A stretch of DNA of 64,000 bases from a bacterium (GTDB lineage: Bacteria; Cyanobacteriota; Vampirovibrionia; Gastranaerophilales; Gastranaerophilaceae): positions 1-64,000 of the forward strand of contig JAGAXG010000006.1 in NCBI GenBank assembly GCA_017941035.1, in the 5' to 3' direction. The translations under genes were made by a program, and so were the position numbers. The notes under the pieces were generated by a model. It saw nothing but the letters and a program-made list of their open reading frames with translations, was not told where the DNA came from and did no database searches. This document shows positions 29,685 to 59,178 of this stretch, one piece after another; positions within the stretch are counted from its first letter, which is position 1, and every line of letters begins with the position of its first letter.

Positions 29685-31196
29685 ATGTACACGGTAACAA
29701 TTAAGAATTTAACTAAAAAATTTGGCTCTACCGTTGCTATAGATAATCTGTCGTTAAATATAGAAAAAGGCAAAATTACAGGTTTAATCGGAGCTGACGG
29801 AGCAGGAAAAACCACACTTTTAAGAACAATAGTCGGTTTATTGTTGCCAAATGAGGGTGAAATAAATGTGCTTGGCTTTAACCCTGCCACTGAAAAAGAC
29901 AAATTACTTGAAGGTTATACTAAGGATGGTAAAATACATTTACCCCTAGGTTATATGCCACAAAAGTTTGGTCTTTATGAAGATTTGACTGTTATTGAAA
30001 ATTTAAGATTATATGCTGATTTAAAAGGTGTTACACACGATTTTGACAAAATGTTGGAATTTACAACTCTTGCACCTTTTCAAGATAGGCTTGCAGGTGC
30101 ATTATCAGGCGGTATGAAACAAAAACTGGGGCTTGCTTGTACGCTTCTCGGGAATCCTGAATTTTTACTTTTAGATGAACCCTCTGTCGGTGTTGATCCT
30201 ATATCTCGCAGAGATTTAATAAAAATGGTTCGTGAAATGATAACACCTGAAACTACTGTTTTATGGTCAACAGCTTATTTAGATGAGGCTCATAATTTTG
30301 ATACTGCTGTTGTCATAGATAAAGGAAAAGTTATTTATGAAGGGAAACCGCATGATTTAGCACCAACACCACAAGAATTTGAAAATAAAGTAATTGATTT
30401 GATGGGTGGATATAATAAAGAAGAATCCCTAATTGCTCAAAATTATGATTACCATGCACCTGATGTTGAATTAACCGTTGAAGCGGATAATTTAGAAAAG
30501 AGATACGGAAATTTTTATGCAGTTAAAAATAACACTTTCAAAATTAAAAAAGGTGAAATATTTGGACTTTTAGGGCCAAACGGAGCAGGGAAATCAACAT
30601 CATTTAAAATGATGTGCGGACTTGCCCGACCAACAAGTGGTACTGCAAGAATTATGGAAATTGATATAAAGAAAAATCCTGAGCGTGCAAGATCAAATTT
30701 AGGGTATATGGCACAAAAATTTTCTCTGTATGGAAGTTTAACGGTAAAAGAAAACTTGGACTTTTTTGCACTTGCTTACGGAATTAGCATTTTAAAAAAA
30801 GATAAAAAGGTTAATGAAGTAATTGAGGTTTTTGGGCTAAAAGAATATGAAAATACAAAAGCAGAAGAATTACCGCTTGGATTGAAACAAAGGCTTTCAA
30901 TGGCAGCTGCACTCATTCACAATCCGCCTGTTTTGTTTTTGGATGAACCTACATCAGGTGTTGATGTTTTGACACGCAGGGATTTTTGGAATCATATAAC
31001 ATCATTAGCCAAAAAAGGTGTAACGATATTGGTTACAACTCATTTTATGGATGAGGCTGAATATTGCGATAGGATTAGTCTTTTTTACAAAGGCGAAACT
31101 ATTGCAGTAGGTACACCAACAGAATTAAAACAGCAAGCAGGTGCAAACGATATGGAAACTGCATTTATAAACTTAATTAAGGAGAGCGAAAAATGA
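29685..31196 (+). CDS. Double ATP-binding ABC protein (YbhF-like)
   Basis: Two ABC ATPase domains in one chain of 503 residues. Domain 1: Walker A GADGAGKT (36-43), signature LSGGMKQ, Walker B LLLDEPSVGVD. Domain 2: GPNGAGKS, signature reading LPLGLKQRLS (the LSGGQ equivalent is changed), LFLDEPTSGVD. It energises export by the two permeases that follow, whose genes overlap by four bases (ATGA). YbhF in E. coli, with CecR, YbhG, YbhS and YbhR, exports cefoperazone/chloramphenicol-type compounds or polyamine-like substrates; the same role is inferred here. Confidence 0.92.
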   Translation: MYTVTIKNLTKKFGSTVAIDNLSLNIEKGKITGLIGADGAGKTTLLRTIVGLLLPNEGEINVLGFNPATEKDKLLEGYTKDGKIHLPLGYMPQKFGLYEDLTVIENLRLYADLKGVTHDFDKMLEFTTLAPFQDRLAGALSGGMKQKLGLACTLLGNPEFLLLDEPSVGVDPISRRDLIKMVREMITPETTVLWSTAYLDEAHNFDTAVVIDKGKVIYEGKPHDLAPTPQEFENKVIDLMGGYNKEESLIAQNYDYHAPDVELTVEADNLEKRYGNFYAVKNNTFKIKKGEIFGLLGPNGAGKSTSFKMMCGLARPTSGTARIMEIDIKKNPERARSNLGYMAQKFSLYGSLTVKENLDFFALAYGISILKKDKKVNEVIEVFGLKEYENTKAEELPLGLKQRLSMAAALIHNPPVLFLDEPTSGVDVLTRRDFWNHITSLAKKGVTILVTTHFMDEAEYCDRISLFYKGETIAVGTPTELKQQAGANDMETAFINLIKESEK

Positions 31197-32314
31197 AAAT
31201 CTTATTAGCCTTAATTAAAAAAGAAATAAAACAAATACTTCGCGACCCTTCGAGTATTGTAATCGCATTTATTTTGCCTTTAATATCTTTCCTGATTTAT
31301 ATGTATGGTGTAAATCTTGATTCGGTAAAGGTTACAATAGGAATTAAAAATGACGATAATTCACCCGAAGTTGCAACTCTTGTAAAATCATTTGGACATT
31401 CAAAATACGTCAACTCAATAAATTTTGATAATATGGAAGATATTAAAACTGCGATTGTTCGTTCAAAAATTAAAGGTGCGGTTGTAATACCGAATGATTT
31501 TTCGACGAAACTTTCTCGTGGACAAGGGGTAAATAAAGGGGCTGATTTACTGATTATAACAGACGGAAGTGAAGTTAATACTGCAAATTATGTTCAAAGT
31601 TATGCCAATATGATTGCTAATCAATGGCTAATCACAAGTAAATATAAAATGCATTTACCCCGACCTTTAATTAATACTGAAGTCAGAACTTGGTATAATC
31701 CTGATTTAAACTCACATTATTTTATCGTTCCCGGTTCTATTGCTATTACTATGACATTAATCGGAATTTTACTTACTTCACTTGTCATAGCTCGTGAGTG
31801 GGAACGGGGAACAATGGAAGCCTTGCTATCAACAAAAGTCCGAGTAATACATATTGTTTTAGGTAAATACATCCCTTATTTTATTTTGGGAATGGTATCT
31901 ATGGCTTTTAACGTGTTTCTTTGCGTTTGTATTTTTCAAATACCGTTTAAGGGCAGTTATTTGTTATTGTTTTTAATTAGCGGAATATTTTTGTTTACTT
32001 CGCTTGGCATTGGCTTATTGATTTCAACTGTATTAAAAAATCAATTTATGGCAAGTATGGTCGCTATGAGTTTAGGTTTTATGCCTGCCCTGATGTTATC
32101 GGGGTTAATGTTTCCGATAAATTCAATGCCTGTATTTTTCCAATATTTAACAGCAATAATTCCGCCAAGATACTATATTTCATTTATTGAAAGCGAATTT
32201 ATGGCAGGAGGGGTAAATGAAATAAGGCTGGCTAATGCTTTTTATTTAACAGTATTAGGCTTGATTTTGTTTGTTGCAGTTTATAAAAAGACACAGATGA
32301 GGTTAGAAAAATGA
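31193..32314 (+). CDS. ABC-2 type permease (YbhS-like)
   Basis: Integral membrane subunit of 373 residues with the ABC-2 topology: an N-terminal helix (about 21-41), a long extracytoplasmic domain (about 45-175) and five to six helices in the C-terminal half, including SGLMFPINSMPVFFQYLTAIIPPRY, a family hallmark. The start overlaps the ATPase stop by four bases. With the next gene it should form a heterodimeric channel. AGGAGAGCGAAA precedes the ATG. Confidence 0.92.
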   Translation: MKILLALIKKEIKQILRDPSSIVIAFILPLISFLIYMYGVNLDSVKVTIGIKNDDNSPEVATLVKSFGHSKYVNSINFDNMEDIKTAIVRSKIKGAVVIPNDFSTKLSRGQGVNKGADLLIITDGSEVNTANYVQSYANMIANQWLITSKYKMHLPRPLINTEVRTWYNPDLNSHYFIVPGSIAITMTLIGILLTSLVIAREWERGTMEALLSTKVRVIHIVLGKYIPYFILGMVSMAFNVFLCVCIFQIPFKGSYLLLFLISGIFLFTSLGIGLLISTVLKNQFMASMVAMSLGFMPALMLSGLMFPINSMPVFFQYLTAIIPPRYYISFIESEFMAGGVNEIRLANAFYLTVLGLILFVAVYKKTQMRLEK

Positions 32315-33423
32315 TTAGAGATTTTTTACGCAGAGTTATAGCTCTGATGAAAAAAGAATTTATAACAATTTGGAATGACCCGAAATCTCGTGCCATTATC
32401 GTTATGATGCCGATTATGCAGCTTTTAATATTTTCTAACGCAGCAACCATGGAAGTTAGAAATATAGATACTGTTGTATTAGACCGTTGTCAAAGTGTTG
32501 AAAGCAGAGAATTACTTTCAAGGTTTAAAAATTCATCAAGATTTAGAAATTTCTATTATGTTTATAATGAAAAAGAATTTCAAAAAGAGCTCGATACCCA
32601 AAAAGTTCAAATCGGTATAAATATTCCGAATGATTTTTCACGCAATATCAAATCTAAAAGAGGTGCAAATGTACTTGTGGTATCAGACGGCAGACAAACG
32701 AACTCCGCTGCTATCGGAGCAGGTTATGCAACACAAATTATTTCAGGGTATAATGCTGAACTTACAGGAAATACAGGGACACAAATAAATCCGACTGTCA
32801 GAAATTGGTTTAACCCTAATCTTGAATACAAGTGGTATATTTTAACAGTTATTGTTGCTATGCTTTCTTTAGTTTCAACCTTAATTTTAACGGCATTATC
32901 TATTGCAAGAGAAAGAGAACTGGGCACTTTCGACCAACTTATTGTAAGTCCTTTGTCATCTTTTGAAATTCTACTAGGTAAATCCATTCCGCCTTTAATA
33001 ATCGCAATGAGTTTAACAATGATTATGGTAGGAATTGTGATAGCATTTTTTCATGTCCCTTTTAACGGTTCTATAATTTTATTCTTTATATCAATTTTGA
33101 TTTCTCTTATGGCAATTGTCGGTGTCGGACTTTTTATTTCTGCAATATGCAATACTCAGCAGCAAGCAATTTTATCAGTTATGACATTTATGATGCCTGC
33201 GGTACTGCTTTCAGGGTTTATTTCACCTATTGAAGATATGCCTATCGGGTGGCAATACCTGACATATTTAAACCCTGTACGATTTTTTATGGTACTGTCA
33301 CGAGGGATATTCTTAAAAGGAATGGAAATAGAAGATGTCATAACAAACTTAATTCCGCTAATAATAATTGCCGCAATAACCCTGACACTTGCAAGCAGAA
33401 CATTTAAAAGAAAACTGGGATAA
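32311..33423 (+). CDS. ABC-2 type permease (YbhR-like)
   Basis: Second permease, 370 residues, same topology as its neighbour: N-terminal helix (about 26-43), extracytoplasmic loop with PNDFSRNIKSKRGANVLVVSDG, then a helical C-terminal half with SGFISPIEDMPIGWQYLTYLNPVR. Start overlaps the previous stop by four bases (ATGA). Together with the TetR, HlyD and double ATPase genes it completes a five-gene exporter operon that ends at 33423; repeat R1 begins 28 bases later. Confidence 0.92.
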   Translation: MIRDFLRRVIALMKKEFITIWNDPKSRAIIVMMPIMQLLIFSNAATMEVRNIDTVVLDRCQSVESRELLSRFKNSSRFRNFYYVYNEKEFQKELDTQKVQIGINIPNDFSRNIKSKRGANVLVVSDGRQTNSAAIGAGYATQIISGYNAELTGNTGTQINPTVRNWFNPNLEYKWYILTVIVAMLSLVSTLILTALSIARERELGTFDQLIVSPLSSFEILLGKSIPPLIIAMSLTMIMVGIVIAFFHVPFNGSIILFFISILISLMAIVGVGLFISAICNTQQQAILSVMTFMMPAVLLSGFISPIEDMPIGWQYLTYLNPVRFFMVLSRGIFLKGMEIEDVITNLIPLIIIAAITLTLASRTFKRKLG

Positions 33424-33450
33424 ATATTAAACACAAAACTTATCCAAAAA

Positions 33451-33706
33451 GTATCAGTAACTTTGAGAATGAATTATCAGAAGGTATGAGAGTTTGTATC
33501 AGCGGATTTGCGGACGGACGACACGAAGTTAGTCCGGATAGCGAGGGAATTGAGCAAACTTGAACCAAAGGTTCAATTGCGAAACTTTCCGAGCGTGGAG
33601 CAAATCCAAGACGGGAGTTTTGGAATTCTTCCCCCAAAATGTAAAAAGTTTGAGAATTCTCTCAAACTTCCGGGGGTACTTTTCTCAATCTCTCTGATAA
33701 TTTACA
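33451..33706 (+). repeat. Repeat R1, copy A
   Basis: Starts GTATCAGTAACTTTGAGA and ends CTCAATCTCTCTGATAATTTACA. It is nearly identical to 43287-43519 over the 218-base core (about a dozen mismatches by eye), with a 20-odd base insertion near its start. Contains hairpins TTGAACC/GGTTCAA and AGTTTGAGAA/TTCTCAAACT. Lies 27 bases after the ABC exporter operon and may act as its terminator. Confidence 0.9.
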
Positions 33707-34430
33707 ATTTGTTAAATTTTAAATTGGCGATATGCTGTATTTTCGTTTCTTCACTTACTTGGCTATATGGATAAAGAATATTATAAATTTCATCTATATC
33801 AGATTGAGATAATGCTTGATTGTTGTTTGTTAACAAATGATTGATAACCTTATTTAATTCATATCTGTGAATTAATATTGTACCAGAATTTTTATTTCTT
33901 TTAATGCTTTTAAACTCACAATCATTTGAAAAAACGACTAATGAATAATATTTTAAATTCTTGTTTACAATATTATTCAAATATTTTATATGATATTCAT
34001 TTTGCATAATTGGATTATAAAAATGTTCTTTTTGTGTATCACCATAACCAATATGCAAAGATTGAGTCCACTTCTTTTGGCTTTCTGTTCCAAAAATCCA
34101 ACCACTATAATATTTACTTTCAAAAACAAAAATTCCTTGAGGTGCAATCATTATTACATCAATTTCAGTTGTTTTATTGTTGTAAGTTGGAATATATAGA
34201 TTGAATAAAAATTTTACTCCCTCTAATTCCAAATATTTTAATTCTTTATATATTAAATATTCACCTCTATGTCCTGAGTCATGTTTTATTTGTGAATAAG
34301 GAATTTTAGTAATGTCAAAATATGAGGTTTCTTCATATTTTTTCTTATTGTATAAATGTACGCATATAGATGCGACTACAAAAAATAAAAAACCAAATAT
34401 AATTAAAGTAATAATTTCAGCATCACTCAT
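33702..34430 (-). CDS. NERD-domain protein with membrane anchor
   Basis: A 242-residue protein from ATG 34430. It has an N-terminal membrane helix (about 5-27), then a nuclease-related domain (NERD): GHRGEYLIYKELKYLELEGVK, TEIDVIMIAPQGIFVFESKYYSGWIFG with the conserved Asp and ExK, and WTQSL. NERD is a PD-(D/E)XK-like fold found in bacterial membrane or DNA-processing proteins; its role here is unknown. The stop codon lies in the final bases of R1 and the start about 38 bases from R2, so the gene fills the gap between the two repeats that is 34 bases long in copy B. Confidence 0.82.
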   Translation of the reverse strand: MSDAEIITLIIFGFLFFVVASICVHLYNKKKYEETSYFDITKIPYSQIKHDSGHRGEYLIYKELKYLELEGVKFLFNLYIPTYNNKTTEIDVIMIAPQGIFVFESKYYSGWIFGTESQKKWTQSLHIGYGDTQKEHFYNPIMQNEYHIKYLNNIVNKNLKYYSLVVFSNDCEFKSIKRNKNSGTILIHRYELNKVINHLLTNNNQALSQSDIDEIYNILYPYSQVSEETKIQHIANLKFNKL

Positions 34431-34467
34431 AAACAAATAATAGCAGAAATATAAAAGATATTTAACC

Positions 34468-34723
34468 TTCCGACTAGCTTCCGAGTTTTGGTGTGGGTAA
34501 ATTCAAAACGAATTTTTGTCCGGAAAGTGCCAGCGGGGAATGCTTGATTATATTTAGGTTTTAGCGATTTAGGCGGATTTATTGTGGAAAGTTGCCGCCA
34601 ATTTGTGGACAATAAAGTGACTTTCTGTGTAGTTTCAGTCAACCACTCGGAAGGGGATGTAATTCAAACGTAAAGCCGAAAGGCGGCAGAAAAATATTTT
34701 TTCAAATGTCCCATTAAAACCCA
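34468..34723 (+). repeat. Repeat R2, copy A
   Basis: Starts TTCCGACTAGCTTCCGAG and ends CCCATTAAAACCCA. Matches 43554-43810 closely at both ends, most strongly over GGCGGATTTATTGTGGAAAG and AGTCAACCACTCGGAAGGGG, and diverges in the middle left part. A minus-strand reading frame across it is not conserved in copy B, so it is non-coding. The 340-base gap between the NERD gene and 34780 holds only this repeat. Confidence 0.9.
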
Positions 34724-37844: not shown

Positions 37845-38008
37845 TATCAGAGAGTATTGAACAAATTATCTTTTCAATTTGAACTGTCTGACAGATAGAA
37901 TTGAACAATTTCCGACTTAATTAAACGCAAAATTAAACTTTTCAATTTCATTGTCCGACTTGTTCAATTTTAACTGTCTATTTATAACTTTTCTCAATCT
38001 CTCTGATA
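37845..38008 (+). repeat. MITE-like element with terminal inverted repeats
   Basis: Left end TATCAGAGAGTATTGA (37845-37860) and right end TCAATCTCTCTGATA (37994-38008) are inverted copies with one base inserted. The right end is the same as the ends of R1 at 33706 and 43519. Inside are internal repeats CAATTT...GAACTGTCTGACAGATA and TGTTCAATTTTAACTGTC. No coding potential. It lies right after the HxlR stop. Confidence 0.75.
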
Positions 38009-38074
38009 ATCTACACCCATTTATAGAGAGTATCATGAATATCTATATAACAAACTCTTAAAACTGCCTAGGTT

Positions 38075-41632: not shown

Positions 41633-43180
41633 ATGGAAATATTAGAAGAACAAATAAACCCTAAAAAAGCGCCTTTGTGGCTGTTATCACTTGTTGTAGT
41701 GATGCCTACTTTCTTTGCATTTCTTGCAACAAGTTCATCTAATGCAGCGCTAATGCATATAGCAGGTTCATTCGGCTCAACTGCAGACGAAGCAAAATGG
41801 GTTGTAACAAGCTATATGATTGCAAACGGAATATTTTTACCATTGACAGGGTGGTTAGAAAGGACGTTAGGCAGGCTGAACTTTTTAAAAATATTTATTG
41901 CAATTTTTACTGTCGGTTCTGTTGTATGCTCTTTTGCCCCGAGCCTTCTGGTTTTGATTATAGGAAGAATTATTCAAGGAGTTGGCGGCGGTGTTTTAAT
42001 GCCATTATCTCAATCAATATTGTTACAGGAATTTCCCGAAAATCGAAAAGGCGATGCTATGGCGATTTTTGTATTTTCGATTATGGTGTCGTCTATTATG
42101 GGGCCGACTGTCGGCGGTTTATTAGTTGATAACTTTTCATGGCAATGGATATTTATAATTAATATTCCGATAGGGATTTTATCTTTAATCCTAATTCCAA
42201 TGATAGTAAACGATACAACAAGAAGCAAGAAAAAAGAGAAAGTCGATTTTTTAGGTGTAGCCTTTTTAGTTTTATGGCTGTTTTCAATGCAGGTTGTCTT
42301 GGATAAAGGTCAGCAATACGGCTGGTTTGATTGTAGTTGGATATATTGGTTGTCTGTTTTTTCTTTAGCTATGATGTTTGCTTTTATAGTTTGGGAACTT
42401 GAAATAAAAGAACCTATTGTGAATTTAAGAGTATTTAAAAACTCAAATTTTGTTGTCGGAACGATTTTAGGTGTCGTATTAAATATGATGGTTTGTGCCA
42501 CAATGATTTTACTTCCTCAATTTTTCCAAAGTTTGATGCATTATACTGCATCTGATACGGGAATTGCACTTGCAACAAGAGTTTTTGCGGTTGTAATTCT
42601 GTTTTTTATAGGAAGAATTTGTGCTTTGTATGATATCAGATATGTTATCGCAACAGGATTTTTAATAATGGGAGTATCTATTGCACTGTGCGTTGATTTG
42701 AATTTAGCCGTAAATCCCGAGTGGATAATTTTATCAAACATAATGTTTGGAATAGGCTCAGCTACCGCTCTTGTGCCAATCTCAGGGGTAGCGTTGGGAA
42801 CTCTTGCAAAAGACGATATTCCATCAGGAGCAGGGATTCACAGTTTAACAAAATGCGTAACGGGTTCTGTTGCTACATCGCTTGCTTCAAGTTGGATAAT
42901 CAGTTTATCCCAAGTTCATCAGAATTATTTGGTTAAGAATATGGGGGTAAATAATATCAATTTTGTTAATCATTTTAATGCACTAAAATCTGCATTTTTA
43001 CACCACGGAGAAGCTATTATTGCTGCTAAAAAAGCAAATATATTGCTTTATAAACAGCTCCTTGTTCAATCAAAACTAATGGCAATATCTGACTTGTTTG
43101 CCCTCTGTGCGATTTTGACATTTTTGATGATTCCGCTTTCTGTGTTGTTGAAGGTTGAAAAGAAAATTGATAGCGATTAA
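41633..43180 (+). CDS. EmrB/QacA-type drug:proton antiporter (MFS, DHA2)
   Basis: Fourteen-helix major facilitator of 515 residues. DHA2 motifs include GWLERTLGRLNFLK (motif A loop), GRIIQGVGGGVLMPLSQSILL (motif C-like) and WQWIFIINIPIGI. With the EmrA-like adaptor and the TolC-like channel it should form a tripartite pump that expels hydrophobic drugs or bile salts. GAAGGTAAATA precedes the ATG. The operon ends here, and R1 copy B begins about 106 bases later. Confidence 0.93.
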   Translation: MEILEEQINPKKAPLWLLSLVVVMPTFFAFLATSSSNAALMHIAGSFGSTADEAKWVVTSYMIANGIFLPLTGWLERTLGRLNFLKIFIAIFTVGSVVCSFAPSLLVLIIGRIIQGVGGGVLMPLSQSILLQEFPENRKGDAMAIFVFSIMVSSIMGPTVGGLLVDNFSWQWIFIINIPIGILSLILIPMIVNDTTRSKKKEKVDFLGVAFLVLWLFSMQVVLDKGQQYGWFDCSWIYWLSVFSLAMMFAFIVWELEIKEPIVNLRVFKNSNFVVGTILGVVLNMMVCATMILLPQFFQSLMHYTASDTGIALATRVFAVVILFFIGRICALYDIRYVIATGFLIMGVSIALCVDLNLAVNPEWIILSNIMFGIGSATALVPISGVALGTLAKDDIPSGAGIHSLTKCVTGSVATSLASSWIISLSQVHQNYLVKNMGVNNINFVNHFNALKSAFLHHGEAIIAAKKANILLYKQLLVQSKLMAISDLFALCAILTFLMIPLSVLLKVEKKIDSD

Positions 43181-43286: not shown

Positions 43287-43519
43287 GTATCAGTAAGTTT
43301 GAGAGTTTGTATCAGCGGATTTGCGGACGGACGACACGAAGTTAGTCTGGATAGCGAGGAAATTGAGCAAACTTGAACCGAAGGTTCAATTGCGAAACTT
43401 TCCGAGCGTGGAGCAAATCCAAGACGGAAGTTTTGAAATATTTCCCCAGAAACTTAAAAAGTTTGAGAATTCTCTCAAACTTCCGGGGGTACTTTTCTCA
43501 ATCTCTCTGATAATTTACA
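43287..43519 (+). repeat. Repeat R1, copy B
   Basis: Matches 33451-33706, starting GTATCAGTAAGTTTGAGAG and ending CTCTGATAATTTACA. The reading frame across it (LVRIARELSKLEPK type in copy A) changes at several non-silent positions, arguing against a gene. Located after the EmrAB operon, as copy A is after the ABC exporter. Positions 43181-43286 hold nothing else. Confidence 0.9.
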
Positions 43520-43553
43520 TTTGAGTAATAAAATTTTGATAAACTGTTTTTAT

Positions 43554-43810
43554 TTCCGACTAGCTTCCGAGTTTGGGGGTGAGGAGTTTCAAAACGGACT
43601 TTTTGTCCGAAACGTGTCATTGCGGAATATGGCGATATATTTAGGTTGTAGCGATTTGGGCGGATTTATTGTGGAAAGTTGCCGCCAAATTGTGGACAAT
43701 AAAGTGACTTTCTGAGTAGTTTCAGTCAACCACTCGGAAGGGGATGTAATTCAAACACAAAGCCGAACTTCGGCAGAAAAATATTTTTTCAAATGTCCCA
43801 TTAAAACCCA
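43554..43810 (+). repeat. Repeat R2, copy B
   Basis: Matches 34468-34723. It follows R1 copy B by 34 bases, whereas in copy A 761 bases with a NERD gene lie between. Contains GCCGAACTTCGGC hairpin where copy A has GCCGAAAGGCGGC. Confidence 0.9.
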
Positions 43811-46619: not shown

Positions 46620-47448
46620 ACGCAAACACACATCAAAGTTTTATTATGATGTATTTTTATCAACTTTTGACAAATTTTTCCAAGAAAAATTTCGTATGTA
46701 TTCCCTATGTCCGGATTTGACATAGGCATAGGTTATTATAATATTGTAAAAAAGACGTAAAGATTAAATTTTTGTATAGTTTTTCGGACACTTTTGAAAT
46801 TGGTTTTTGAGATGTTTAATCGCCGTGTTTGGCTTTGTGTTTGAGTTGTACCCGCTTCCCCTAGTCTGAGAGTCGGGGGTTTGAAAAGTCCGAAATGTCC
46901 GGTTATTAGGACTAAAATGTCCGGTATCTTTCCATAAAATTTTATAAAATTGCCAAGTTTCCCTATTATATTTGAGTTACAGTCGAGTGCAAAAAGCGGA
47001 CATTTTATGCAATTTGTTAATTAAAAATTATACTAAACTCGGAAGAGTCCAGTAAATTGTGCCTTTTAGAATTTTAATTATTTCGCATAATTCTACTATA
47101 TTCACCCCTAAGTCGGAAGTAATTTTTTAAGTGGGAAATCGCTTCCCTGACTTTATTTTTCAAATATTTTATCGAAACAAATTCCAAAACTTAAGAATGA
47201 GTTTTCCAAGACTAAGTGTAAAAAATATCAGATTAATTTTTACCCTATAAGACGGAAGCAGAATTGAGAGAAAATAGCAGATTATTGCAAAATCATGAAT
47301 TCAAACTGTGTTTAAATTGCGTTTAAAAGATGTTCAAAAGCAGTTTTATAAATTTTTTGCTTAAAATTCAGACATAATCGAACACAAAACAACACATTTC
47401 CCTCTAAATTCAATAAAATTGATAAAAATTAATATTAAAAACAAAAAT
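46620..47448 (+). other. Non-coding region with a cluster of GGACA/TGTCC words
   Basis: No gene is visible in this 830-base gap. It holds several copies of TGTCCG or CGGACA in both orientations (near 46709, 46783, 46896, 46915 and 46998), several embedded in AAAATGTCCGG. It also contains ACTCGGAAG and TAGTCGGAAG-like words near 47040 and 47115, similar to R2. The pattern could be protein-binding sites or a decayed repeat. I found no open reading frame of note. Confidence 0.5.
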
Positions 47449-49803: not shown

Positions 49804-51876
49804 ATGACAGACATTAATAATAATGATATTTGGATTGATGTTGAAACATTAGCGAAACTCAAAAACATTACCAGAAGAGCTGTTCGGCTTGCACTAAATC
49901 AAAATAAATATGAATACAAAGTAGAAAATATCAGAGGTGGCAAAACATACAAGATTAAATTATCAACGCTTGAAGAAGAGCTGCAGCTTAAATATTTTCA
50001 GGAATATTATGATGATTATAAAACGTGTGAGAACGAGGTCATTGAACTATCAAACCTCAATATAAAACAAGAAAAATTGATATCTGAAAACCAAAGAAAA
50101 ATCGCTCTTGCAAAATATGACCTGATTTATGCTTGGCTTGATTTTAGGAAAGAATATAAAAGGGACAAGCTCAAAGCCAATGGTAACATCCCCGATAAAG
50201 AATTCCTGCAATTATATAATACAGGGATGTTTCAGGAAGAGATTTTTAAGATTTTAGGTAAAGTCTCAATCGGCTCGCTTTATCGCTGGCGGGCATTATT
50301 AGATTACAACAAAGATTGGACGGCGTTAGTTGGGCAATATAAATATTCAACGCGTAAGGAATATAGAACAACTTTAAACGAGGAGCAGATTAAAATATTT
50401 ATACAAATTCTGCTGTCGCCTAGTGCGTTTTCAATAGGTAAAGCAATTTCACTCACAAAGCATATTCTAAAAGAACGCGGTCAGGAGATTTTACCCAAAG
50501 ATATTACATTCAGGCGGTATGCGGAGTGGTTCAGGGATAATAATTTCGATAAATGGACACTTGCAAGAGACGGCGAAAAAGCTCTAAAGGATAAAGTAAG
50601 CCCGTTTATAGTCAGAAACGCAGCACTTTTAAAAGCAGGGCAAGTGCTTGTCGCAGACGGGCATACACTTAACTTCCAAGTGATAAACCCGTTTACTGGC
50701 AAACCCTGCCGAGCAACTTTGCTTGGTTTCTTGGATTGGAAATCAGGAGGGCTTGTCGGATACGATATTATGCTTGAAGAATGTACGCAAAATATTGCAT
50801 CGGCTTTAAGAAACGCCATCTTAAAAATGGACCATATTCCTGAATATGTTTACCAGGATAACGGTAGAGCCTTTAAAAGCAAATTCTTCAATGGAGACAA
50901 AAAATTCGAGGAATTAGGATTTACAGGAGTCTATAACAAACTCGGAATAAAACCAGTCTATGCCACTCCATATAACGCTCGAGCCAAAGTCATCGAGCGT
51001 TTCTTTTTGGATTTTCAGGAAAGTTTTGAAAAACTTATTCCAAGCTACATTGGGACAAGCATCGAAAACAAGCCGGCATATTTGATGCGAAACGAGAAGT
51101 TACATAAAAATATCCATGAGAAATACAGTTTTACCCCGACAATAGAGCAGGCACTTAAAATGATAGATAAATGGCTTGAATTCAAACACTCGCAACCTTG
51201 TCCGAATGCTAAAGATAAAACAATTCAAGAGGTTTTAAATGAAGTTGAGAAAGAAAATATTGATGAAAATTCGTTGGATGATTTGATGATGGCACAAGAA
51301 ATTAAATCAATCGGTAGAAACGGAATAAGATTTTTAAAAGCTGATTATTTTGATGAATCATTATACGGAATTAAAGAAAAAACGGTTATAAAGTACAGCC
51401 TGTTTGACCTTTCCTATATAAAAGTCTATTCGATGAAAGGCGAATTTATATGTAAGGCAAACCGCATAACAGAAACGCATCCGCTTGCGTATCAAATGGG
51501 CGATATTAAAGATATTGAGGACTATAAGCAAAAGATTGAAAAACAACAAAAACTTCGCAGAAAAACAATTAAAGCAGTTCGGGAGCATTTCAACTTAGAG
51601 GATATGGATTATCTTGAAAAAGAATTAATGCAAAATATCCGCTTGCCTGAACCTGAGCCGATTAAAGAAATAACGGTTCAGGCTGAACCAAAGCCAAAGC
51701 AAGATTTTGAACCGAAGGTTAAAACTTCAATTGTTGCACGGCCAATATTTAAATCTTCTTATGAGCGCTATGAATGGCATATGCAAAATGGCTGTATCTG
51801 CCAAGAGGACAGAACTTGGCTAACAAATTACATAAAATCAGACGAATACAAAGAAATATACGGAAAGGAGCAGTAA
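49804..51876 (+). CDS. Mu-type DDE transposase
   Basis: Mu transposase family protein of 690 residues. The N-terminal helix-turn-helix (WIDVETLAKLKNITRRAVRLAL, about 10-31) binds DNA ends; an integrase-core DDE domain carries Asp 285 (VLVADGHTL), Asp 352 (YQDNGRAF) and Glu 398 (KVIERFF); a basic C-terminal region has coiled-coil character and would contact MuB. AAGGATACGGT precedes the ATG. The stop overlaps the next gene's start (TAATG). Confidence 0.9.
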   Translation: MTDINNNDIWIDVETLAKLKNITRRAVRLALNQNKYEYKVENIRGGKTYKIKLSTLEEELQLKYFQEYYDDYKTCENEVIELSNLNIKQEKLISENQRKIALAKYDLIYAWLDFRKEYKRDKLKANGNIPDKEFLQLYNTGMFQEEIFKILGKVSIGSLYRWRALLDYNKDWTALVGQYKYSTRKEYRTTLNEEQIKIFIQILLSPSAFSIGKAISLTKHILKERGQEILPKDITFRRYAEWFRDNNFDKWTLARDGEKALKDKVSPFIVRNAALLKAGQVLVADGHTLNFQVINPFTGKPCRATLLGFLDWKSGGLVGYDIMLEECTQNIASALRNAILKMDHIPEYVYQDNGRAFKSKFFNGDKKFEELGFTGVYNKLGIKPVYATPYNARAKVIERFFLDFQESFEKLIPSYIGTSIENKPAYLMRNEKLHKNIHEKYSFTPTIEQALKMIDKWLEFKHSQPCPNAKDKTIQEVLNEVEKENIDENSLDDLMMAQEIKSIGRNGIRFLKADYFDESLYGIKEKTVIKYSLFDLSYIKVYSMKGEFICKANRITETHPLAYQMGDIKDIEDYKQKIEKQQKLRRKTIKAVREHFNLEDMDYLEKELMQNIRLPEPEPIKEITVQAEPKPKQDFEPKVKTSIVARPIFKSSYERYEWHMQNGCICQEDRTWLTNYIKSDEYKEIYGKEQ

Positions 51877-52607
51877 TGAAAAAGGTCTTCGTAAAAACAA
51901 AAAATGTGAAACAGCTAATCTCGATGATGAACCGTCTGCGAGAAAGAGAAGACGGAGTTCCAGGAATGGGACTTGTTTATGGCGAACCTGGGCTTGGCAA
52001 AACTTATGCAATTACTTGGTGGGCGGCACAAAACGATGCAATACTAATCAGGAGTGCCAATCTTATGTCCGCTAGGTGGTTACTTGAAGAGATGGTTGAA
52101 GAGCTAGGGGAGATTCCTTATAACAAGTTCTCGGATATCTTCAATCAAGTGGTAGCACAATTAATCAAAACTCCAAGAACCATTATTGTAGATGAAACGG
52201 ATTATTTAACGATTGATTCTCGGGCAGTTGAAACGCTTAGGGACATTCACGATAAAACGAATGTCCCTATTGTTTTAGTCGGAATGGGTACGGCAAATAA
52301 AAGACTCCAACGGCATAAACATTTATACGATAGATTATTGGAAATTATAAAATTTGAACCGTTCTCAAAACAAGATATAACTTCAATAATCGACCAATTA
52401 TCAGAAGTCCCGTTTACGGATTGTGCCAAAAAGCTTTTATACATTCGCACAAATCGATTCAGGCAATTGGTAAAAACTATCAGTAAAGCAGAACAGGTCG
52501 CAAAATCAAACGGAATAAAGGAAATTGACGAAATAACTTTGAAGGAGGTGCTAAAAAATGACGATGCTGACGCAGAAGAAATTGAACTTACAAATGAAAA
52601 TTCTTAA
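51876..52607 (+). CDS. MuB-like AAA+ ATPase
   Basis: A 243-residue AAA+ ATPase with Walker A GEPGLGKT and Walker B RTIIVDETDYL. It binds target DNA and activates the transposase in Mu. From ATG 51876 the ribosome site GGAAAGGAGCAG is optimal; the longer reading from 51774 overlaps the transposase deeply. The C-terminal helical domain (LSEVPFTDCAKKLLYIRTNRFRQLVKTISKAEQ) is typical of MuB/TniB-type proteins. It overlaps the next gene by 50 bases. Confidence 0.88.
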   Translation: MKKVFVKTKNVKQLISMMNRLREREDGVPGMGLVYGEPGLGKTYAITWWAAQNDAILIRSANLMSARWLLEEMVEELGEIPYNKFSDIFNQVVAQLIKTPRTIIVDETDYLTIDSRAVETLRDIHDKTNVPIVLVGMGTANKRLQRHKHLYDRLLEIIKFEPFSKQDITSIIDQLSEVPFTDCAKKLLYIRTNRFRQLVKTISKAEQVAKSNGIKEIDEITLKEVLKNDDADAEEIELTNENS

Positions 52608-53802
52608 AATAGCAAAGGGGCTTAATAAATTTACTCTGTCTGACATTCTGCCAATGCTTGAAGAAAATGAAAAAACAATTCAAAAAGCACTTAATGATTT
52701 GGAAAATTTGAATCAAATTAAAAAGATATCAAATACAGAATATTTATACACGAATTTTAAAAAGCGTGTGAATAAACCTCTCCCCACAAGCCAAAGCAGC
52801 GATTCAGATATTTGGCTCACAATACCCGAGGTCGCTCGGCTGCTAAATATTCAGGAAGAAACGGTAAAAAGGAATTGCCTTAAAGGAAATTATGTAGTAA
52901 AACCTAACAAAGAGCCTGATTTAGAGGGGAAATATTTAATCAAACGCTCGTCATTAAAACTCTACGATTTTTTAGAAGATTCAGAACGGCGTGCGATGGA
53001 TAAAGAAGTCAAGAAACTTTTCCACAATAAAGAGGAAGAACGTTTGTATGTTGTGGCTTCGGACAGAGGCAAAGAATTTATATACAGATATCTGAAACTT
53101 TTTAAACTCACAGAAGGTATGAATTGCAGAGAATTGCGGAGCTTTTTAGAAATAATCCCTTTAAAGAATCCAAAGCTAAAGGTTTCATATTCTGCGTTTC
53201 ATTCCAAACGTAAAAAGTACCAAACAGAAGGTATGATGGGAATATTCCCCAAATATTTTATGCCGGATAATAAAAGCGAAGAACCTGAAGTCCGCAGGAA
53301 TTTAAACCGCCTGCCGAAAGTATATAACTTAGCAACAACAGAACAAATTGAGATTATTTATAAATGCTTTTGCTTCGGGATTCCGGCTTCTCAAACCGCA
53401 AAAATCGCAAATATGGGAAATACAACAACGGAGACTTTTTATCAATATATTCGTGCAAGAATTTTTGATAAACAATATCAGGAGTTGGTTGAACATTTTG
53501 ACTCTAACCCTCAAATCCCGCAAGTCAGGATTTTTATGAACGATGTTTCAGTATGCCTTTATTGCTACAATGACAAAGTTTTCATTACACAGAAACCTCT
53601 AAAAACAAAGTTGCCCCAGAGACGTCAGCAGCCTGATGAAGTCAAAGAAGCACGCAGAATGTATAACATTCTTTACCGTAAAAAATTTATGGCAAGTATG
53701 CGGAAATACCTAGACCACCACCTAGCCGTATTCTTATGGAAAGAACTCAACCCCAACTTTGAAGATCAGCTGAACCTAATTTATGAGATGATACATATAT
53801 AA
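52558..53802 (+). CDS. HTH DNA-binding protein of the Mu-like module
   Basis: A 414-residue protein whose gene overlaps the MuB-like gene by 50 bases; GGAGGTG precedes its ATG by six to seven bases. A winged-helix N-terminus (FTLSDILPMLEENEKTIQKALNDLENLNQIKKIS, about 26-60) is followed by an excisionase/MerR-like HTH (DIWLTIPEVARLLNIQEETVKRNCLKGNYVV) that resembles the transposase N-terminus. The rest has helical and basic regions; EARRMYNILYRKKFMASMRKYL is near the C-terminus. It probably acts in transposition or its regulation. Confidence 0.65.
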   Translation: MTMLTQKKLNLQMKILKIAKGLNKFTLSDILPMLEENEKTIQKALNDLENLNQIKKISNTEYLYTNFKKRVNKPLPTSQSSDSDIWLTIPEVARLLNIQEETVKRNCLKGNYVVKPNKEPDLEGKYLIKRSSLKLYDFLEDSERRAMDKEVKKLFHNKEEERLYVVASDRGKEFIYRYLKLFKLTEGMNCRELRSFLEIIPLKNPKLKVSYSAFHSKRKKYQTEGMMGIFPKYFMPDNKSEEPEVRRNLNRLPKVYNLATTEQIEIIYKCFCFGIPASQTAKIANMGNTTTETFYQYIRARIFDKQYQELVEHFDSNPQIPQVRIFMNDVSVCLYCYNDKVFITQKPLKTKLPQRRQQPDEVKEARRMYNILYRKKFMASMRKYLDHHLAVFLWKELNPNFEDQLNLIYEMIHI

Positions 53803-53822: not shown

Positions 53823-55670
53823 TCATTCTTTAAATATTTTAATATTAGCAACATTTTCTTCTTGCAGCAATACAAAAAACTCGTTAATTGAATCTTTCTT
53901 TTGCTCTGGATATCTCAAGCCCGAACGCACATTTGAAAAAGTAAAAGTTACAGAACATTTTGCTCTTGATAAAGCAACAAAAAATGCACACCTATCCTCT
54001 TCTGGCTGATTTTTAAAATTCCAAAAAGCAGAATCTTCCAGTCCAACAAAATATACAGCAGAGTATTCCAAACCCTTGCTTTTATGTATAGTCATAATAG
54101 GAATAGAATTTAATCCACAGAAATCATCGATAGCTTTTTGCCAATTTTGATTTGCTGTTTCAAACTCTATATTAAAAAGTTCAATGAATTTATCTAATAT
54201 TGTATCAAAATAATTCCCTTGACTATAAACTGGGAAATATGCTTTTATGCGATTTGTATCCAAAAAGGATTTTATAGTATTAATAATTTCAGATATATTA
54301 CATTTTTGTTCTATCATATTTTTCAAATTATTTTTCAAATCAAAAATTTGGTTTTGCAACTCTTCATACGTGGTATTATTATCACTATTAATACTAAAGA
54401 TATTAATGATACATTCCTTAATTGTTTCCCATTTCTGTGCCTGTTTTATATTTATTGAACAAGAAACAATATCCAAAATAAGTTGTATTATAGGTTCTTT
54501 AATCAAGTCCTGATATTCAATTTCAATTCTTGCACGGATACCTTTTTCTTTTAATGCTTTTTCAATTGCCTGACTATAATCTTGCGGTCTTTGTTTACAT
54601 AAAAGACAAATATCATTAGGTTCTATACCATTGCAAATTTTTTTATAAATATCATTAGCAATTGCGTCTGCTTCAAGCATTTCATTATCTGAAATAAAAA
54701 GATTAATTTCGCCATCAGAAGGATTCCATTTATTAGAACATTTAATATCTAGATCTACTTCTTGTAAAGATTCATACATTTTTCTTTGAAGCTCAACTAA
54801 TTTTGGCGCAGATCTATGATTCATTAATAGCACTTTTGTAGCAGCCTTAAATTCATCACTATATATTTCAAAAACATTTTTCATTGCTCCTGCCCAAACC
54901 ATAATACGTTGTTTATTGTCGCCAACAGCAGTTATTATAGAATTTGACTCTAAAAAGCAATCTTTGATAAATTTATATTGTAAATCAGTAGTATCCTGAA
55001 ATTCATCTAAAAACACATGACTATATGTTTTTTGTATTGCTAATTTAATTTGTTCATTTGTAAGTATTATATAATCTGCTAATTTATTAATCATTTTAAA
55101 AGTAAGAGTAGCCTTGTGATTATCAAATCCTTTGAGTAATAAAGGCCAGATTTTACTTCCAAATTCATCTGGATTTAGAGGTATAGTGGTATCTTTAAGA
55201 GGTTTATCATAATATCTGTAAAACTTACTTTTTGCGGTTCCATTATGTAATACTCCTTGTCTAACAAAAGCTTTATCAATTACATCAAAATCTTCCACTA
55301 AATAATTGGAATTTGGTCTTAATTCATTTGGTAAAGCATAGAGAAAATGGTCTAAAATTCTTTTAAAAAAAGCATCATATGTCATAGATGAGAATCTTGA
55401 TTTCGCATCTTGTCCACATCGTTTTTCAACTCTTTCTTTCAAATTTTGTGCAGAATCCGTCTTAAAACTAATTGCTAATATTTTTTTGGGATCTTTACAG
55501 AGATTTGTTTGTAAAAGATAAGTAGCTTTTTGTGCCAATAATTCAGTTTTACCCGCTCCTGGTCCAGCTATTACTAAAATATTATTTTGAGATATTACAG
55601 ATTGTTTTGCAGATTCTTCAAGAATAATACCATCACTTGGTTGCCAAATTTCTTTATTAATTATTTTCAT
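53823..55670 (-). CDS. gajB: Gabija GajB, UvrD-like helicase
   Basis: Superfamily 1 helicase/NTPase of 615 residues. Motifs: Walker A GPGAGKTELL (36-45), ISFKTDSAQNLKERV, DEFQDTTDLQYKFI (Walker B region), MNHRSAPKLVELQ, and SKGLEYSAVYFVGLEDSAFW (motif V). In Gabija, GajB hydrolyses ATP/GTP and activates GajA to cleave phage DNA. It begins five bases after the gajA stop; both are on the minus strand. B. cereus GajB is shorter (about 494), so there is extra sequence in the middle. Placement after the gajA-type gene makes the call firm. Confidence 0.88.
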   Translation of the reverse strand: MKIINKEIWQPSDGIILEESAKQSVISQNNILVIAGPGAGKTELLAQKATYLLQTNLCKDPKKILAISFKTDSAQNLKERVEKRCGQDAKSRFSSMTYDAFFKRILDHFLYALPNELRPNSNYLVEDFDVIDKAFVRQGVLHNGTAKSKFYRYYDKPLKDTTIPLNPDEFGSKIWPLLLKGFDNHKATLTFKMINKLADYIILTNEQIKLAIQKTYSHVFLDEFQDTTDLQYKFIKDCFLESNSIITAVGDNKQRIMVWAGAMKNVFEIYSDEFKAATKVLLMNHRSAPKLVELQRKMYESLQEVDLDIKCSNKWNPSDGEINLFISDNEMLEADAIANDIYKKICNGIEPNDICLLCKQRPQDYSQAIEKALKEKGIRARIEIEYQDLIKEPIIQLILDIVSCSINIKQAQKWETIKECIINIFSINSDNNTTYEELQNQIFDLKNNLKNMIEQKCNISEIINTIKSFLDTNRIKAYFPVYSQGNYFDTILDKFIELFNIEFETANQNWQKAIDDFCGLNSIPIMTIHKSKGLEYSAVYFVGLEDSAFWNFKNQPEEDRCAFFVALSRAKCSVTFTFSNVRSGLRYPEQKKDSINEFFVLLQEENVANIKIFKE

Positions 55671-55675
55671 TGTAT

Positions 55676-57715
55676 TTAACCTTTTAATATAGATTTTGCT
55701 TTATTAAATATTTTAGAAAAAACATCTGGTAAATTTGCTTTTATGTTTTCTTCAGGTATAGACGATAGCATTAACATGTGAGTAGTCGGTTTGCCTCTGT
55801 TTAAGAAAAAGTAATTATACCAAATCATAAGTTCTTTTTGTTTTTCACTGTAAGTTTCTCCACTTCCACCTTTTTCTTTGAGTGAATTTTTTACATCTTT
55901 AGAAATCCTGTCCTTAAATTCATTGCTAGATTTTTCTTCTTCACTAAGATCTTTGATTTTTTTACAATTTTCACCAATTTTTATTTCAGGACCTTCTTTG
56001 TTTTCTAAAGTATTTTTATAATATTCTTGATAATTTTCAAGCATTAAAAAATCTATATCTAATGGTTCTGAAAAATATATATTATATTTTTCTAAATGTT
56101 GTAGCCAATTTCTTATTTTTTTATCATCATTTTCCCATTCAGGCATATTATCAAAATCGGTTTCTGGTAATACATTTCCGTTTCTAAATTTAAAAAGGTC
56201 ATTGTATTCATAACCAATATTTAATAGCTGCTGAAAAGCATAATGTATTCGTCCCCAACCACCCCCGAATCGTTCTTTATCAAAATCCAAAAGAGTAATA
56301 TATGGTATTTTTAGATTATCTAACAAACGCCAAAAATGATTAACATGCTTACCACCAAGAGGAACTATGGATATTTCACTTAAATCAATATCTCCATTAT
56401 ACTTTTCCCACAATTTTGACAATATTAATTCTTCGCTATCACCTTCACCCAAAATAACGAGTTTTGCAAAATATAATTCGGGATATGCTTTAACGGCTTC
56501 TTTTACATATTTATATTGCTCATCTGTTTTATTTGGTAAAGTTATACTACAAACATTAGTGTATCCTATGTCGTCTACTCTAAAATAACGTACTTGAGAT
56601 GGTTCAATTCTTTTGATTATGGAAGCAGAATGAGATGTTATAATTGTTTGAGCATTATTTTTATCTGCAATATTTTTTAAGTTATTTACTAATCTCCCAA
56701 GTAAATGTGGTGCTATATGGTTTTCAGGTTCTTCTACTGCCATAATGGTCAAAACAGGTAAATTTTTATTAAAAGATATGTTCTCTGAATCAGTTTCTAT
56801 TTCTTTTTTGATTGTGCTTTCAATATTTAAAATACTATCTATTAATGAAATGTAGAACAAAGATTTTAATCCATCGCTCATTTGATCAACAGTATAATCA
56901 TTTCCTGTTTCAGTTGGGCTAAAAACAACGTCTGCTCTTCTTATAGAGGTTTCAATATCTGCACTATTAAATTTTAATGCTACATTTTTATACTTTTCAT
57001 TTGTGTCGTAATTTTTCCAGCGTTTATCTAAAGAATCATTTAATATTTTAACACCTTGTTCTGCTTCAAATTCAGAATTTAATTCTTCAATCTTTGATTT
57101 AATATTATTTCGCCTTTCATCTTTCCAATTAATACTATTAATAAGTTGATACATCATAGCTCCGGATGTGTTTTTAAGCTGTTTTGAAGGATCCCTAACA
57201 GCAGGTACATATATGACCCTAATTTTATCTAAATCTCGCCTTTGCGCATTAACATAATCTTTATCTTCTATTTCTGCAGATTCTGGGCAAGTAATGTATC
57301 TAATCTGATAATCTATCGCACCTTCAATAGTATTGCTTTTTTCCCAAGTTGCATCCAATCTAACACGTATATATGGAATGCCATCAGGAGTATCTACAAT
57401 TACATGCTCAAAAAATTGTGGTATAGAGTCATCTTCTTCGCCTTCTCGTATATTTTTAAATTCAAAAACAGCTTCAATATACATTTTTTGTTCTGTCATA
57501 TTTTCAGGTAGTGTATTTTGGGGGACATAAAAATCACTACGTCTTATATTTCTATCACTTGTAAATTCTGAAAACATACAATTTAGTGCTGCTAATGCCG
57601 CTGTTTTTCCGGTACTATTACTTCCAATAAATGTTGTTAAATCATCAATTGTAATAATATGTTCTTTTTCTCCAAAACAACGAAAGTTAAATAACTTTAT
57701 TTTACTTAGTCTCAT
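55676..57715 (-). CDS. gajA: Gabija GajA, OLD-family ATPase-nuclease
   Basis: A 679-residue protein from ATG 57715 (AAGGAATG upstream). The N-terminal ABC/SMC-like ATPase has Walker A GSNSTGKT (31-38) and the late EEPENHIAPHLLGRL segment; the C-terminal TOPRIM domain carries ILGEGDSEELIL and LLDFDKERFGGGWGR. GajA is a sequence-specific nickase/nuclease in Gabija, held inactive by nucleotides and released when phage depletes them. Larger than B. cereus GajA (about 578). Divergent from the Mrr gene 137 bases away, suggesting the three genes form one defence unit. Confidence 0.88.
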   Translation of the reverse strand: MRLSKIKLFNFRCFGEKEHIITIDDLTTFIGSNSTGKTAALAALNCMFSEFTSDRNIRRSDFYVPQNTLPENMTEQKMYIEAVFEFKNIREGEEDDSIPQFFEHVIVDTPDGIPYIRVRLDATWEKSNTIEGAIDYQIRYITCPESAEIEDKDYVNAQRRDLDKIRVIYVPAVRDPSKQLKNTSGAMMYQLINSINWKDERRNNIKSKIEELNSEFEAEQGVKILNDSLDKRWKNYDTNEKYKNVALKFNSADIETSIRRADVVFSPTETGNDYTVDQMSDGLKSLFYISLIDSILNIESTIKKEIETDSENISFNKNLPVLTIMAVEEPENHIAPHLLGRLVNNLKNIADKNNAQTIITSHSASIIKRIEPSQVRYFRVDDIGYTNVCSITLPNKTDEQYKYVKEAVKAYPELYFAKLVILGEGDSEELILSKLWEKYNGDIDLSEISIVPLGGKHVNHFWRLLDNLKIPYITLLDFDKERFGGGWGRIHYAFQQLLNIGYEYNDLFKFRNGNVLPETDFDNMPEWENDDKKIRNWLQHLEKYNIYFSEPLDIDFLMLENYQEYYKNTLENKEGPEIKIGENCKKIKDLSEEEKSSNEFKDRISKDVKNSLKEKGGSGETYSEKQKELMIWYNYFFLNRGKPTTHMLMLSSIPEENIKANLPDVFSKIFNKAKSILKG

Positions 57716-57851
57716 ATACACATTCCTTATATTAATCATGCTAAAAGCATTGTGAATACTAAATTTATTATAATACAAGAAGTGATATTTTTATTATGGA
57801 AATATATCCGATCCATGTTTGTGATAACCTAAAAAGAAAAAGGAGTTAGAC

Positions 57852-58757
57852 ATGGCTGTACCTGATTTTCAATCATTAATGAATCCTGTTTTAAATTTAT
57901 ATGAAAAGAAAAACATAGAGTTACGCCCACGTGATATCGAAGATGAAATTGCTAAATTATTCAATTTATCTGAAGAAGATAAAAATCAAATGATACCTAG
58001 CAATATTGAAACTATTCTTCGCAACCGCGTTAATTGGGCAGTCTATTACTTATTCAGAGCTGGATTATTAGATAGACCTAAAAGAGGTTATTATAAAATT
58101 AGTGAGGCTGGTGTTCAGGAAAATAAAACAGGGAATAAGATAAATATTGGGTACTTAAAGAAATTCCCATCTTTTGTAGATTTTTCAAATATTGAAAATA
58201 AGAAAAATTCTGATGCGGAGGACATTATCGAAACTGATGAATGTCAAACTCCTGATGAAATGATATCAAAAGCGCAAGCTTTATATTCTGATAATCTTCA
58301 AAGCGAACTATTAGAAAAATTAAAACAAGTTGATCCTGTTAAATTTGAAAAAATAGTCTTACAACTTATGGAAAAGATGAATTATGGCATCGGGTCTATG
58401 ACAAAAATGAGCCATGATGGTGGTATCGACGGAATCATTGACGAAGATGAATTAGGTCTTGAGAAAATTTATCTTCAAGCAAAAAGATATTCAGATAATA
58501 AAGTTAATGAAAAGGAAATGCAAAATTTTGCTGGAGCACTTGGCTGTTCAACCGTACGTAAAGGTGTATTTATAACTACAAGTTTTTTCGATGAAAAAGC
58601 AAAACAAAAAGCTGCTTCTGTTCAGGGAAAAGTAATAAGACTCATTAATGGTGATGAACTAACAAAATTAATGATAAAACATAATGTTGGTGTTCAGCCT
58701 AAAACGACAATAGAAATTAAAAAACTTGATGAAGATTTCTTTGTTGATGAAGGTTGA
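57852..58757 (+). CDS. mrr: Mrr-type restriction endonuclease
   Basis: A 301-residue protein. Residues 1-110 resemble the Mrr N-terminal winged-helix domain (LNLYEKKNIELRPRDIEDEIAKLFNLSEED); residues 160-270 are the Mrr catalytic domain with GGIDGIIDEDELGLEKIYLQAKRY, where D and QAK take the PD-QxK form, plus VRKGVFITTSFF. Mrr enzymes cut methylated DNA. AAAAGGAG precedes the ATG. Divergent from gajA; possibly part of the same defence unit. The convergent gene 58758 starts one base after its stop. Confidence 0.9.
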   Translation: MAVPDFQSLMNPVLNLYEKKNIELRPRDIEDEIAKLFNLSEEDKNQMIPSNIETILRNRVNWAVYYLFRAGLLDRPKRGYYKISEAGVQENKTGNKINIGYLKKFPSFVDFSNIENKKNSDAEDIIETDECQTPDEMISKAQALYSDNLQSELLEKLKQVDPVKFEKIVLQLMEKMNYGIGSMTKMSHDGGIDGIIDEDELGLEKIYLQAKRYSDNKVNEKEMQNFAGALGCSTVRKGVFITTSFFDEKAKQKAASVQGKVIRLINGDELTKLMIKHNVGVQPKTTIEIKKLDEDFFVDEG

Positions 58758-58991
58758 TTACATTCTTTCTATATACCAGTTACTATTTCCAAAATGATTG
58801 AAATTCCAATGTAATTCAAAATAAAAATTAAACTCCAAAGAATTATCATCTTTGAAGTTCCAAGAATATTTATTTAGTTGGGTTTTGCGGTAACTTTCAA
58901 ACGCGTTCTGAATTTCTTTTGCAAATTTTGTTCTGAATTCAGAATACGGAATGTCTAACTTTTCTTTAGTCAATTTATTTTTCAAAATCAT
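58758..58991 (-). CDS. Small hypothetical protein
   Basis: A 77-residue protein from ATG 58991, preceded by AGAGGG at seven bases; a longer frame goes back to 59066 but lacks a site. Highly polar, with KEIQNAFESYRKTQLNKYSWNFKDDNSLEFNFYFELHWNFNHFG near its end. No family recognised. It is the last gene of a three-gene minus-strand set (59391-58758) with small overlaps, which is typical of phage or transposon accessory genes. Confidence 0.5.
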   Translation of the reverse strand: MILKNKLTKEKLDIPYSEFRTKFAKEIQNAFESYRKTQLNKYSWNFKDDNSLEFNFYFELHWNFNHFGNSNWYIERM

Positions 58992-59175: not shown

Positions 59176-59178
59176 AGG

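Follow-up and report, generated by a model that had tools for sequence, protein, structure and literature searches.

R2, and by analogy R1, two repeats of Gastranaerophilaceae genomes, are probably the cargo-side ends of Tn7/Mu-type transposons that home to tRNA-Asn, and repeated landings of such elements would have produced the stacked ends in which the repeats occur. By cargo-side end we mean the end away from the transposase gene, a term chosen in view of the convention in the cited section of PMC11406308, by which "right end" denotes the one upstream of the transposition genes. Elements with a TnsB-type transposase and a TnsC-type ATPase would insert beside the 3′ end of tRNA-Asn, or beside a copy of it, always with the cargo-side end facing the tRNA, and successive insertions at nearly one spot would place elements in a row. 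A newcomer would often land within an older end, some tens of bases from its tip, so that a short outer-tip fragment is left, and decay and deletion would then reduce the row to cargo genes parted by cargo-side ends.

R1, R2 and the NERD gene in the window

The window is a stretch of 64,000 nt from a 1.8-Mb genome, in which it belongs to contig C45 (73.9 kb). It contains R1 followed by R2 twice, 10 kb apart and in the same order and orientation, as a sequence-only reading had noticed, and both coordinates and identities bear this out: R1 at 33475-33709 matches 43288-43522 (235 nt, 94% identical), and R2 matches over a core (34549-34723 versus 43636-43810, 175 nt, 95% identical) and a head (34468-34526 versus 43554-43612, 80% identical). 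Repeats of such length and likeness are far beyond chance. All copies lie on the plus strand: in copy A, R1 spans 33430-33706 (right tip ...CTCTCTGATAATTTACA at 33706) and R2, an end sequence of TnsB-TnsC elements, spans 34466-34723 (right tip ...CATTAAAACCCA); in copy B, R1 spans 43288-43519 and R2 spans 43554-43810. A further R1 right end, truncated at its 5′ side (37987-38015, plus strand), is followed by a broken repeat resembling the 3′ end of tRNA-Asn (R3). Full R2 copies measure 256-257 nt and form a defined element, with flanks that are mostly unrelated.

The spacer between R1 and R2 is likewise as first described: that of copy A measures about 760 nt and contains a NERD-domain gene, and that of copy B is 34 nt long. 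The NERD gene (33702-34436, minus strand, 244 aa, Pfam NERD E 6e-28) takes its stop codon from the final bases of R1, which contributes only its last 4-5 residues and the stop. Truncation of the gene by R1 is ruled out, as the C-termini of three relatives with 42-44% identity (L056, L057 and L058) fall at the corresponding residue. To the left of R1 copy A are plus-strand ORFs (29685-33423), the last two of which encode ABC-2 permeases (31193-32314 and 32311-33423), with the final stop codon 7 nt ahead of R1; a plus-strand MFS transporter gene (41633-43180) precedes R1 copy B. In copy A, R1 would be the end of the ABC-transporter cargo, followed by an R2-ended unit with the NERD gene; since the gene lies between the R1 tip of the ABC-transporter unit and R2, it is, most simply, probably the cargo of the R2-ended unit. 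In copy B, R1 would be the end of the MFS cargo, followed by an R2-ended unit that lost its gene and kept 34 nt, the possible histories including cargo deletion and insertion of an R1-ended element close to R2.

R1 copy A is composite, consisting of M1 (33430-33502), M2 (33502-33616) and M3 (33616-33706). M2 is a separate 115-nt repeat on the plus strand, lodged inside R1 here and again at 43315-43427, missing from most R1 copies and standing alone elsewhere. Its ends are GGATTTGC and GCAAATCC, and its position is identical in the two R1 copies of the window. Solitary copies (contigs C39, C11 and C48 of genome G000, and L119:2551-2652) lie downstream of terminator-like sequence, that of C39 also adjoining an apparent tRNA 3′ end. 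The region of R1 copy A that holds M2 folds better than every one of 200 shuffled sequences (z -5.0); an Rfam scan of the window matched no family.

Beyond the window, further copies and fragments of both repeats occur in the same genome and in related ones. R1 is present in 16 and R2 in 10 of 46 genomes of the genus. Across the order, 66 of 383 genomes carry R1, all but one of them within the window's own family; the exceptional copy, in another family (G048:C19:41631-41790, 89-95% identical), reflects either transfer or erroneous binning. The records in which the R1 core recurs are metagenome genomes, many from ruminant guts; those with a named lineage are Candidatus Gastranaerophilales, Melainabacteria or "Cyanobacteria." The loci analyzed below were picked because R1 or R2 is present, several come from one genome and the copies are related, such that the counts do not represent independent events.

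Single ends, their junctions and tRNA-Asn

In an alignment of 44 full R1 copies, the right end is abrupt (...GATAATCTACA) and the left end diffuse, and the sharp ends of R1 and R2 are on the same, right, side. Duplications of 5 bp surround at most 1 of 46 R1 copies at any offset and 0 of 11 R2 copies, as expected for single ends. The sequence-only reading had suggested that R1 and R2 could be the two ends of one small mobile unit: transposon-related ends, varying genes between ends and differences in position and cargo between species (rather than fixed loci with constant content) all stand, but the pair as the two ends of one unit largely does not, given that both repeats are sharp on the right, that the duplication is lacking and that R2 ends larger TnsB-TnsC elements. 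Nor do the two usually keep together in related genomes: among 38 full R1 copies with at least 2 kb of sequence on the right, an R2 tip follows within 2 kb in 8, and 22 have neither an R1 nor an R2 tip in that range. Conversely, nine full R2 copies have 2 kb of sequence to their left, and R1 is the nearest left tip for just two of them, both in the window.

The flanks of R1 copies assort almost independently. Pairwise comparison of 54 full copies (1,275 pairs scored; 156 of 1,431 left unscored on account of a flank shorter than 60 nt) yielded 43 pairs sharing the left flank only, 92 the right only, 3 both and 1,137 neither, with right-flank sharing arising largely from repeats, namely, the tRNA-like R3 and remnants of R1 and R2. 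In the body of R1, compared by quarters for 53 of the 54 copies, pairs with the same left flank differ in 0.077, 0.166, 0.130 and 0.042 of columns per quarter, versus 0.272, 0.205, 0.204 and 0.044 in unrelated pairs, and values as low arose in 0, 16, 0 and 217 of 1,000 permutations. For pairs sharing the right flank, the corresponding values are 0.284, 0.178, 0.160 and 0.023 (767, 98, 53 and 19 of 1,000 permutations). The body thus tracks the left flank through its first three quarters, and the near-invariant last quarter leans weakly to the right flank; from these statistics, the junction lies at or near the right tip, where the left gene stays and the right neighbor changes.

Blocks of near identity between genomes, sought after loci duplicated between collections and overlapping sequences had been removed, have edges at the same place: three of them (1,407 nt at 99.7%, 1,479 nt at 99.3% and 2,579 nt at 99.7%) stop within 2 bp of the R1 tip. 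The opposite edge of two of the three is a contig end, and the left edges of shared units coincide with other kinds of tip. At one locus (L078), the R1 tip abuts the middle of an ABC-2 permease gene. A 1.4-kb unit (L047:2607-4011 and L052, on G034:C48 and G013:C20) is 99.7% identical in two species, likely through recent transfer; its 340-aa gene belongs to no known family.

Full R1 copies are followed on the right by pieces of R1 or R2 that possess the outer tip but lack the inner part, often with gaps of 0 bp, as in G034:C48, where a full R1 is followed by 54 nt of R1, 15 nt of R1 and 10 nt of R2. Of 88 copies with an intact tip, 34 lack the 5′ part (in some through interruption by M2 or because the contig ends there), and copies without the 3′ part are few and mostly split by M2. 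This asymmetry counts against the transposon explanation as we have framed it: landing inside old ends predicts inner and outer fragments in equal numbers, but outer ones are far commoner.

The stacks have a consistent neighbor. A tRNA-Asn gene is present in 19 of 60 loci scanned, and R3, a common right neighbor, resembles the 3′ end of tRNA-Asn. A signature of the tRNA-Asn T-arm (two mismatches allowed), which occurs only 65 times in the whole 861-kb set, is found within 300 bp to the right of 55 of 87 R1/R2 stacks, and never in the reverse orientation; stacks placed at random in these contigs reached it 2.7 times on average and at most 9 times over 2,000 trials. On the left, the signature accompanies 4 of 87 stacks, and none when a narrower zone is used. 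Counting against the transposon explanation, the signature was not detected at 32 of the 87 stacks or at any of the five tips in the window, one of which (38015) precedes the R3 copy broken by another repeat. Interruption of R3 within its T-arm likeness by a GC-rich repeat is also seen at L067, L071, L093 and G004:C13, as well as from 38015 onward in the window. In all 17 contigs with at least two separate tips, every tip is on one strand, and, together with the 55 stacks beside the signature, this constitutes the oriented insertion at an attachment site that marks Tn7-like elements.

An alternative is that homologous recombination between dispersed direct repeats shuffles the genes, with R1 and R2 as passive substrates. 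Tips that point in the same direction along a contig could, as direct repeats, excise and reinsert segments; assorting left and right flanks are expected, and the lean of the last quarter toward the right flank fits as well. Yet exchange of this kind does not agree with a body that tracks the left flank for three quarters, with identity blocks that end at the tip instead of within R1 or with left edges at other kinds of tip, and it leaves the tRNA-Asn association unexplained. We consider it unlikely as the explanation of the arrays, although homologous recombination may well add to the shuffling.

Transposition genes near R2 and in the window

R2 lies downstream of transposition genes. In G024:C36, genes for TnsB, TnsC and a third protein are followed by a cargo gene of 438 aa and then R2; in G015:C1, the same trio precedes cargo of 312 and 432 aa and then R2, within which the contig ends. 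The two trios are 89.7% identical over 3,321 bp, with different cargo. At L116, the third gene and a 347-aa gene precede R2, and diverged R2 copies lie downstream of TnsB-TnsC at L065, L274, L275 and L281; none was found at the other subfamily loci (L276-L280, L282 and L284). Both G024:C36 (L186:13180-13719) and G015:C1 also contain, divergent beside TnsB, a 179-aa integrase with a catalytic domain only, as if the core-binding and catalytic parts had been split.

The window has a resident element of this general type, which extends from 46775 to at least 60280, its outer blocks conserved and its cargo variable. Its transposase-side end (46775-46910, plus strand) has the tip TATAGTTTTTCGGACACTTTTGAAA. 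The transposition genes, all on the plus strand, encode a TnsB/MuA-type DDE transposase (49804-51876, 690 aa; Mu-transpos_C 4.5e-13, rve 2.1e-5, phrog_310 6.7e-91), which had no match in a PDB sequence search; a TnsC/MuB-type AAA+ ATPase (51774-52607, the start being the mechanical ORF start; VchTnsC 1.6e-7, MuB 1e-5, ShTnsC 6e-4 and a TniB match); and a third protein (52558-53802, 414 aa) with a weak helix-turn-helix match and a putative role in target choice. The two proteins by which Tn7-like elements are recognized, a TnsB-type transposase and a TnsC-type ATPase, are therefore both present. The cargo includes a complete Gabija defense pair on the minus strand (53823-57778; GajB 53823-55670, E 3.7e-217; GajA 55676-57778, E 7.9e-256) and a type IV (Mrr) restriction enzyme, the Gabija and Mrr region occupying 53823-58757, and is followed by a conserved 1.5-kb block (58744-60280, with ORFs at 58758-59066 on the minus strand and 59195-60007 on the plus strand). 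A Mu-like prophage was rejected, as only transposition genes are present, along with Gabija, Mrr and other cargo. Relatives of the transposase (E below 1e-50) occur in 31 of 46 genomes of the genus.

The R2 tip is an inverted match to the resident transposase-side tip (score 13; 0 of 3,000 shuffles as good) and also matches, inverted, the tips of other TnsB subfamilies, the matching tips in each case coming from different elements. The R1 tip matched none of the other tips (lowest uncorrected chance value 0.03), and no transposase could be tied to R1, which by analogy would work like R2. The first intact tip downstream of resident-type TnsB is R1 in 6 of 6 contigs of sufficient length, 17.7-24.8 kb away; R1 as the end of the resident element (46775 onward) is nonetheless doubtful, the tips being mismatched and R1 being absent from three genomes (G010, G019 and G024) that carry that TnsB subfamily. 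These results for R1 count against the transposon explanation, as does the fact that no whole element, with its two ends and a 5-bp duplication, could be delimited in the loci analyzed.

Integron gene cassettes consist of a gene and a 3′ element that move together and are joined to their neighbors at the outer edge of that element, and R1 and R2 could likewise be attC-like sites borne by the gene to their left and joined at their right ends by a site-specific recombinase. Such a unit fits the identity blocks, the assortment of flanks and the behavior of the R1 body, as well as the 1.4-kb unit common to two species. Unlike in cassettes, however, orientation is mixed among the nearest left genes (24 plus and 13 minus of 37), and R2 has clear TnsB-TnsC partners. 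Moreover, no integrase was found near the arrays: PF00589 has no match in the window's contig or near the array of G013, which holds two R1 copies and whose only two matches, XerC/D-like in our reading by length, are far from it (in G016:C14, one match is located at a distance of about 6 kb from R1), and serine recombinases, also discarded as a candidate in their own right, were not found in G034, G017 or G064. We regard a cassette system as quite improbable.

R1 and R2 as MITE-like miniature elements, inserted whole between genes, seem just as doubtful. Fixed lengths and many dispersed copies would suit such elements, as would the motifs TTATCAGNNANNTTGAGA of R1, which are direct at its left side and recur inverted at the right tip, but the 5-bp duplications expected with two inverted ends are lacking at both repeats, the left edge of R1 is diffuse and the flanks are not two halves of one site. 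Insertion by a reverse transcriptase, as the truncated fragments might suggest, was dropped (RVT_1 was not found in G000, G013, G034, G016 or G017), and a XerCD/dif module seems doubtful (by eye, the R1 tip resembles the dif candidate of the genus weakly). The probable chromosomal dif site of the genus is AGATACCTATAATATATATTATGTAAATT (L264, L266 and L268-L271).

Target choice and comparison with known systems

Under the transposon explanation, the third protein would be the candidate for choosing the target, as suggested by resemblance. TniQ (PF06527) was found in none of 10 genomes of the genus, in a search that had no positive control; in a phylum sample, 30 of 194 genomes matched, all from outside the window's family. 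Of 11 third proteins scanned, 7 have an integrase core-binding domain but no catalytic domain (L065, L281, L274, L275, L279, L280 and L284); the domain was not found in those of the window, L186, L276 and L184. In a structural model of the L279 protein (mean pLDDT 76.7, near 88 in the core-binding part), we read an N-terminal helix-strand domain as a putative winged helix, joined by a four-helix domain; the best PDB matches are integrase core-binding domains (e.g., 3nrw and lambda integrase), with E values of 0.001 to 0.04 and a probability of 1.00. TnsB is preceded, at a distance of a few hundred bases, by the end of a tRNA-Leu gene at L279 and L280 and of a tRNA-Arg gene at L284. We tentatively suggest, while rating it somewhat below an even chance, that these loci may represent a TniQ-free TnsB-TnsC lineage that homes by means of a tyrosine integrase reduced to a winged helix and a core-binding domain and thus headless, with subfamilies reading different tRNA genes (Asn, Leu, Arg and perhaps Phe and Ser) and with repeated landings building cargo arrays whose end fragments record their order.

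If true, this would provide the mechanism behind a hypervariable gene region in the Gastranaerophilaceae, a widespread but little-studied gut lineage, and would mean that integron-like gene arrays can arise from a transposon instead of an integrase. With an integrase DNA-binding domain aiming it in place of TniQ, TnsB-TnsC would be compact as an insertion system and would illustrate the exchange of target selectors, and the stacked ends would be a readable record of insertion order. A literature search, with most subscription papers outside its scope, returned no description of such a system.

Several known systems share parts of this arrangement. With phage Mu (MuA/MuB), the window has in common a transposase whose closest PHROG is a phage transposase family and an ATPase with MuB among its PDB matches, but the resident element would prefer a tRNA-adjacent target, and no phage structural genes were seen. 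Attachment sites at tRNA genes are already known for Tn7-like elements: those treated in the cited section of PMC11406308 (CAST I-B2, I-D and V-K) share the TnsB-type transposase, the TnsC-type ATPase, an insertion point displaced from the tRNA and controlled orientation, whereas in the present loci no TniQ or TnsD was found, the third protein is of another kind, truncated ends are stacked and the hosts are Gastranaerophilaceae. The third protein resembles TnsF of Tn6022, which, according to the cited section of PMC10293859, is derived from a tyrosine recombinase, has a core-binding fold without a working catalytic domain and is tied to TnsB/TnsC transposition. As described there, TnsF contains zinc fingers, two core-binding domains and a partial catalytic domain, needs TniQ, through which it acts, and targets comM; in contrast, the third proteins here, from loci in which no TniQ was found, would combine a winged helix with one core-binding domain and be directed to tRNA genes.
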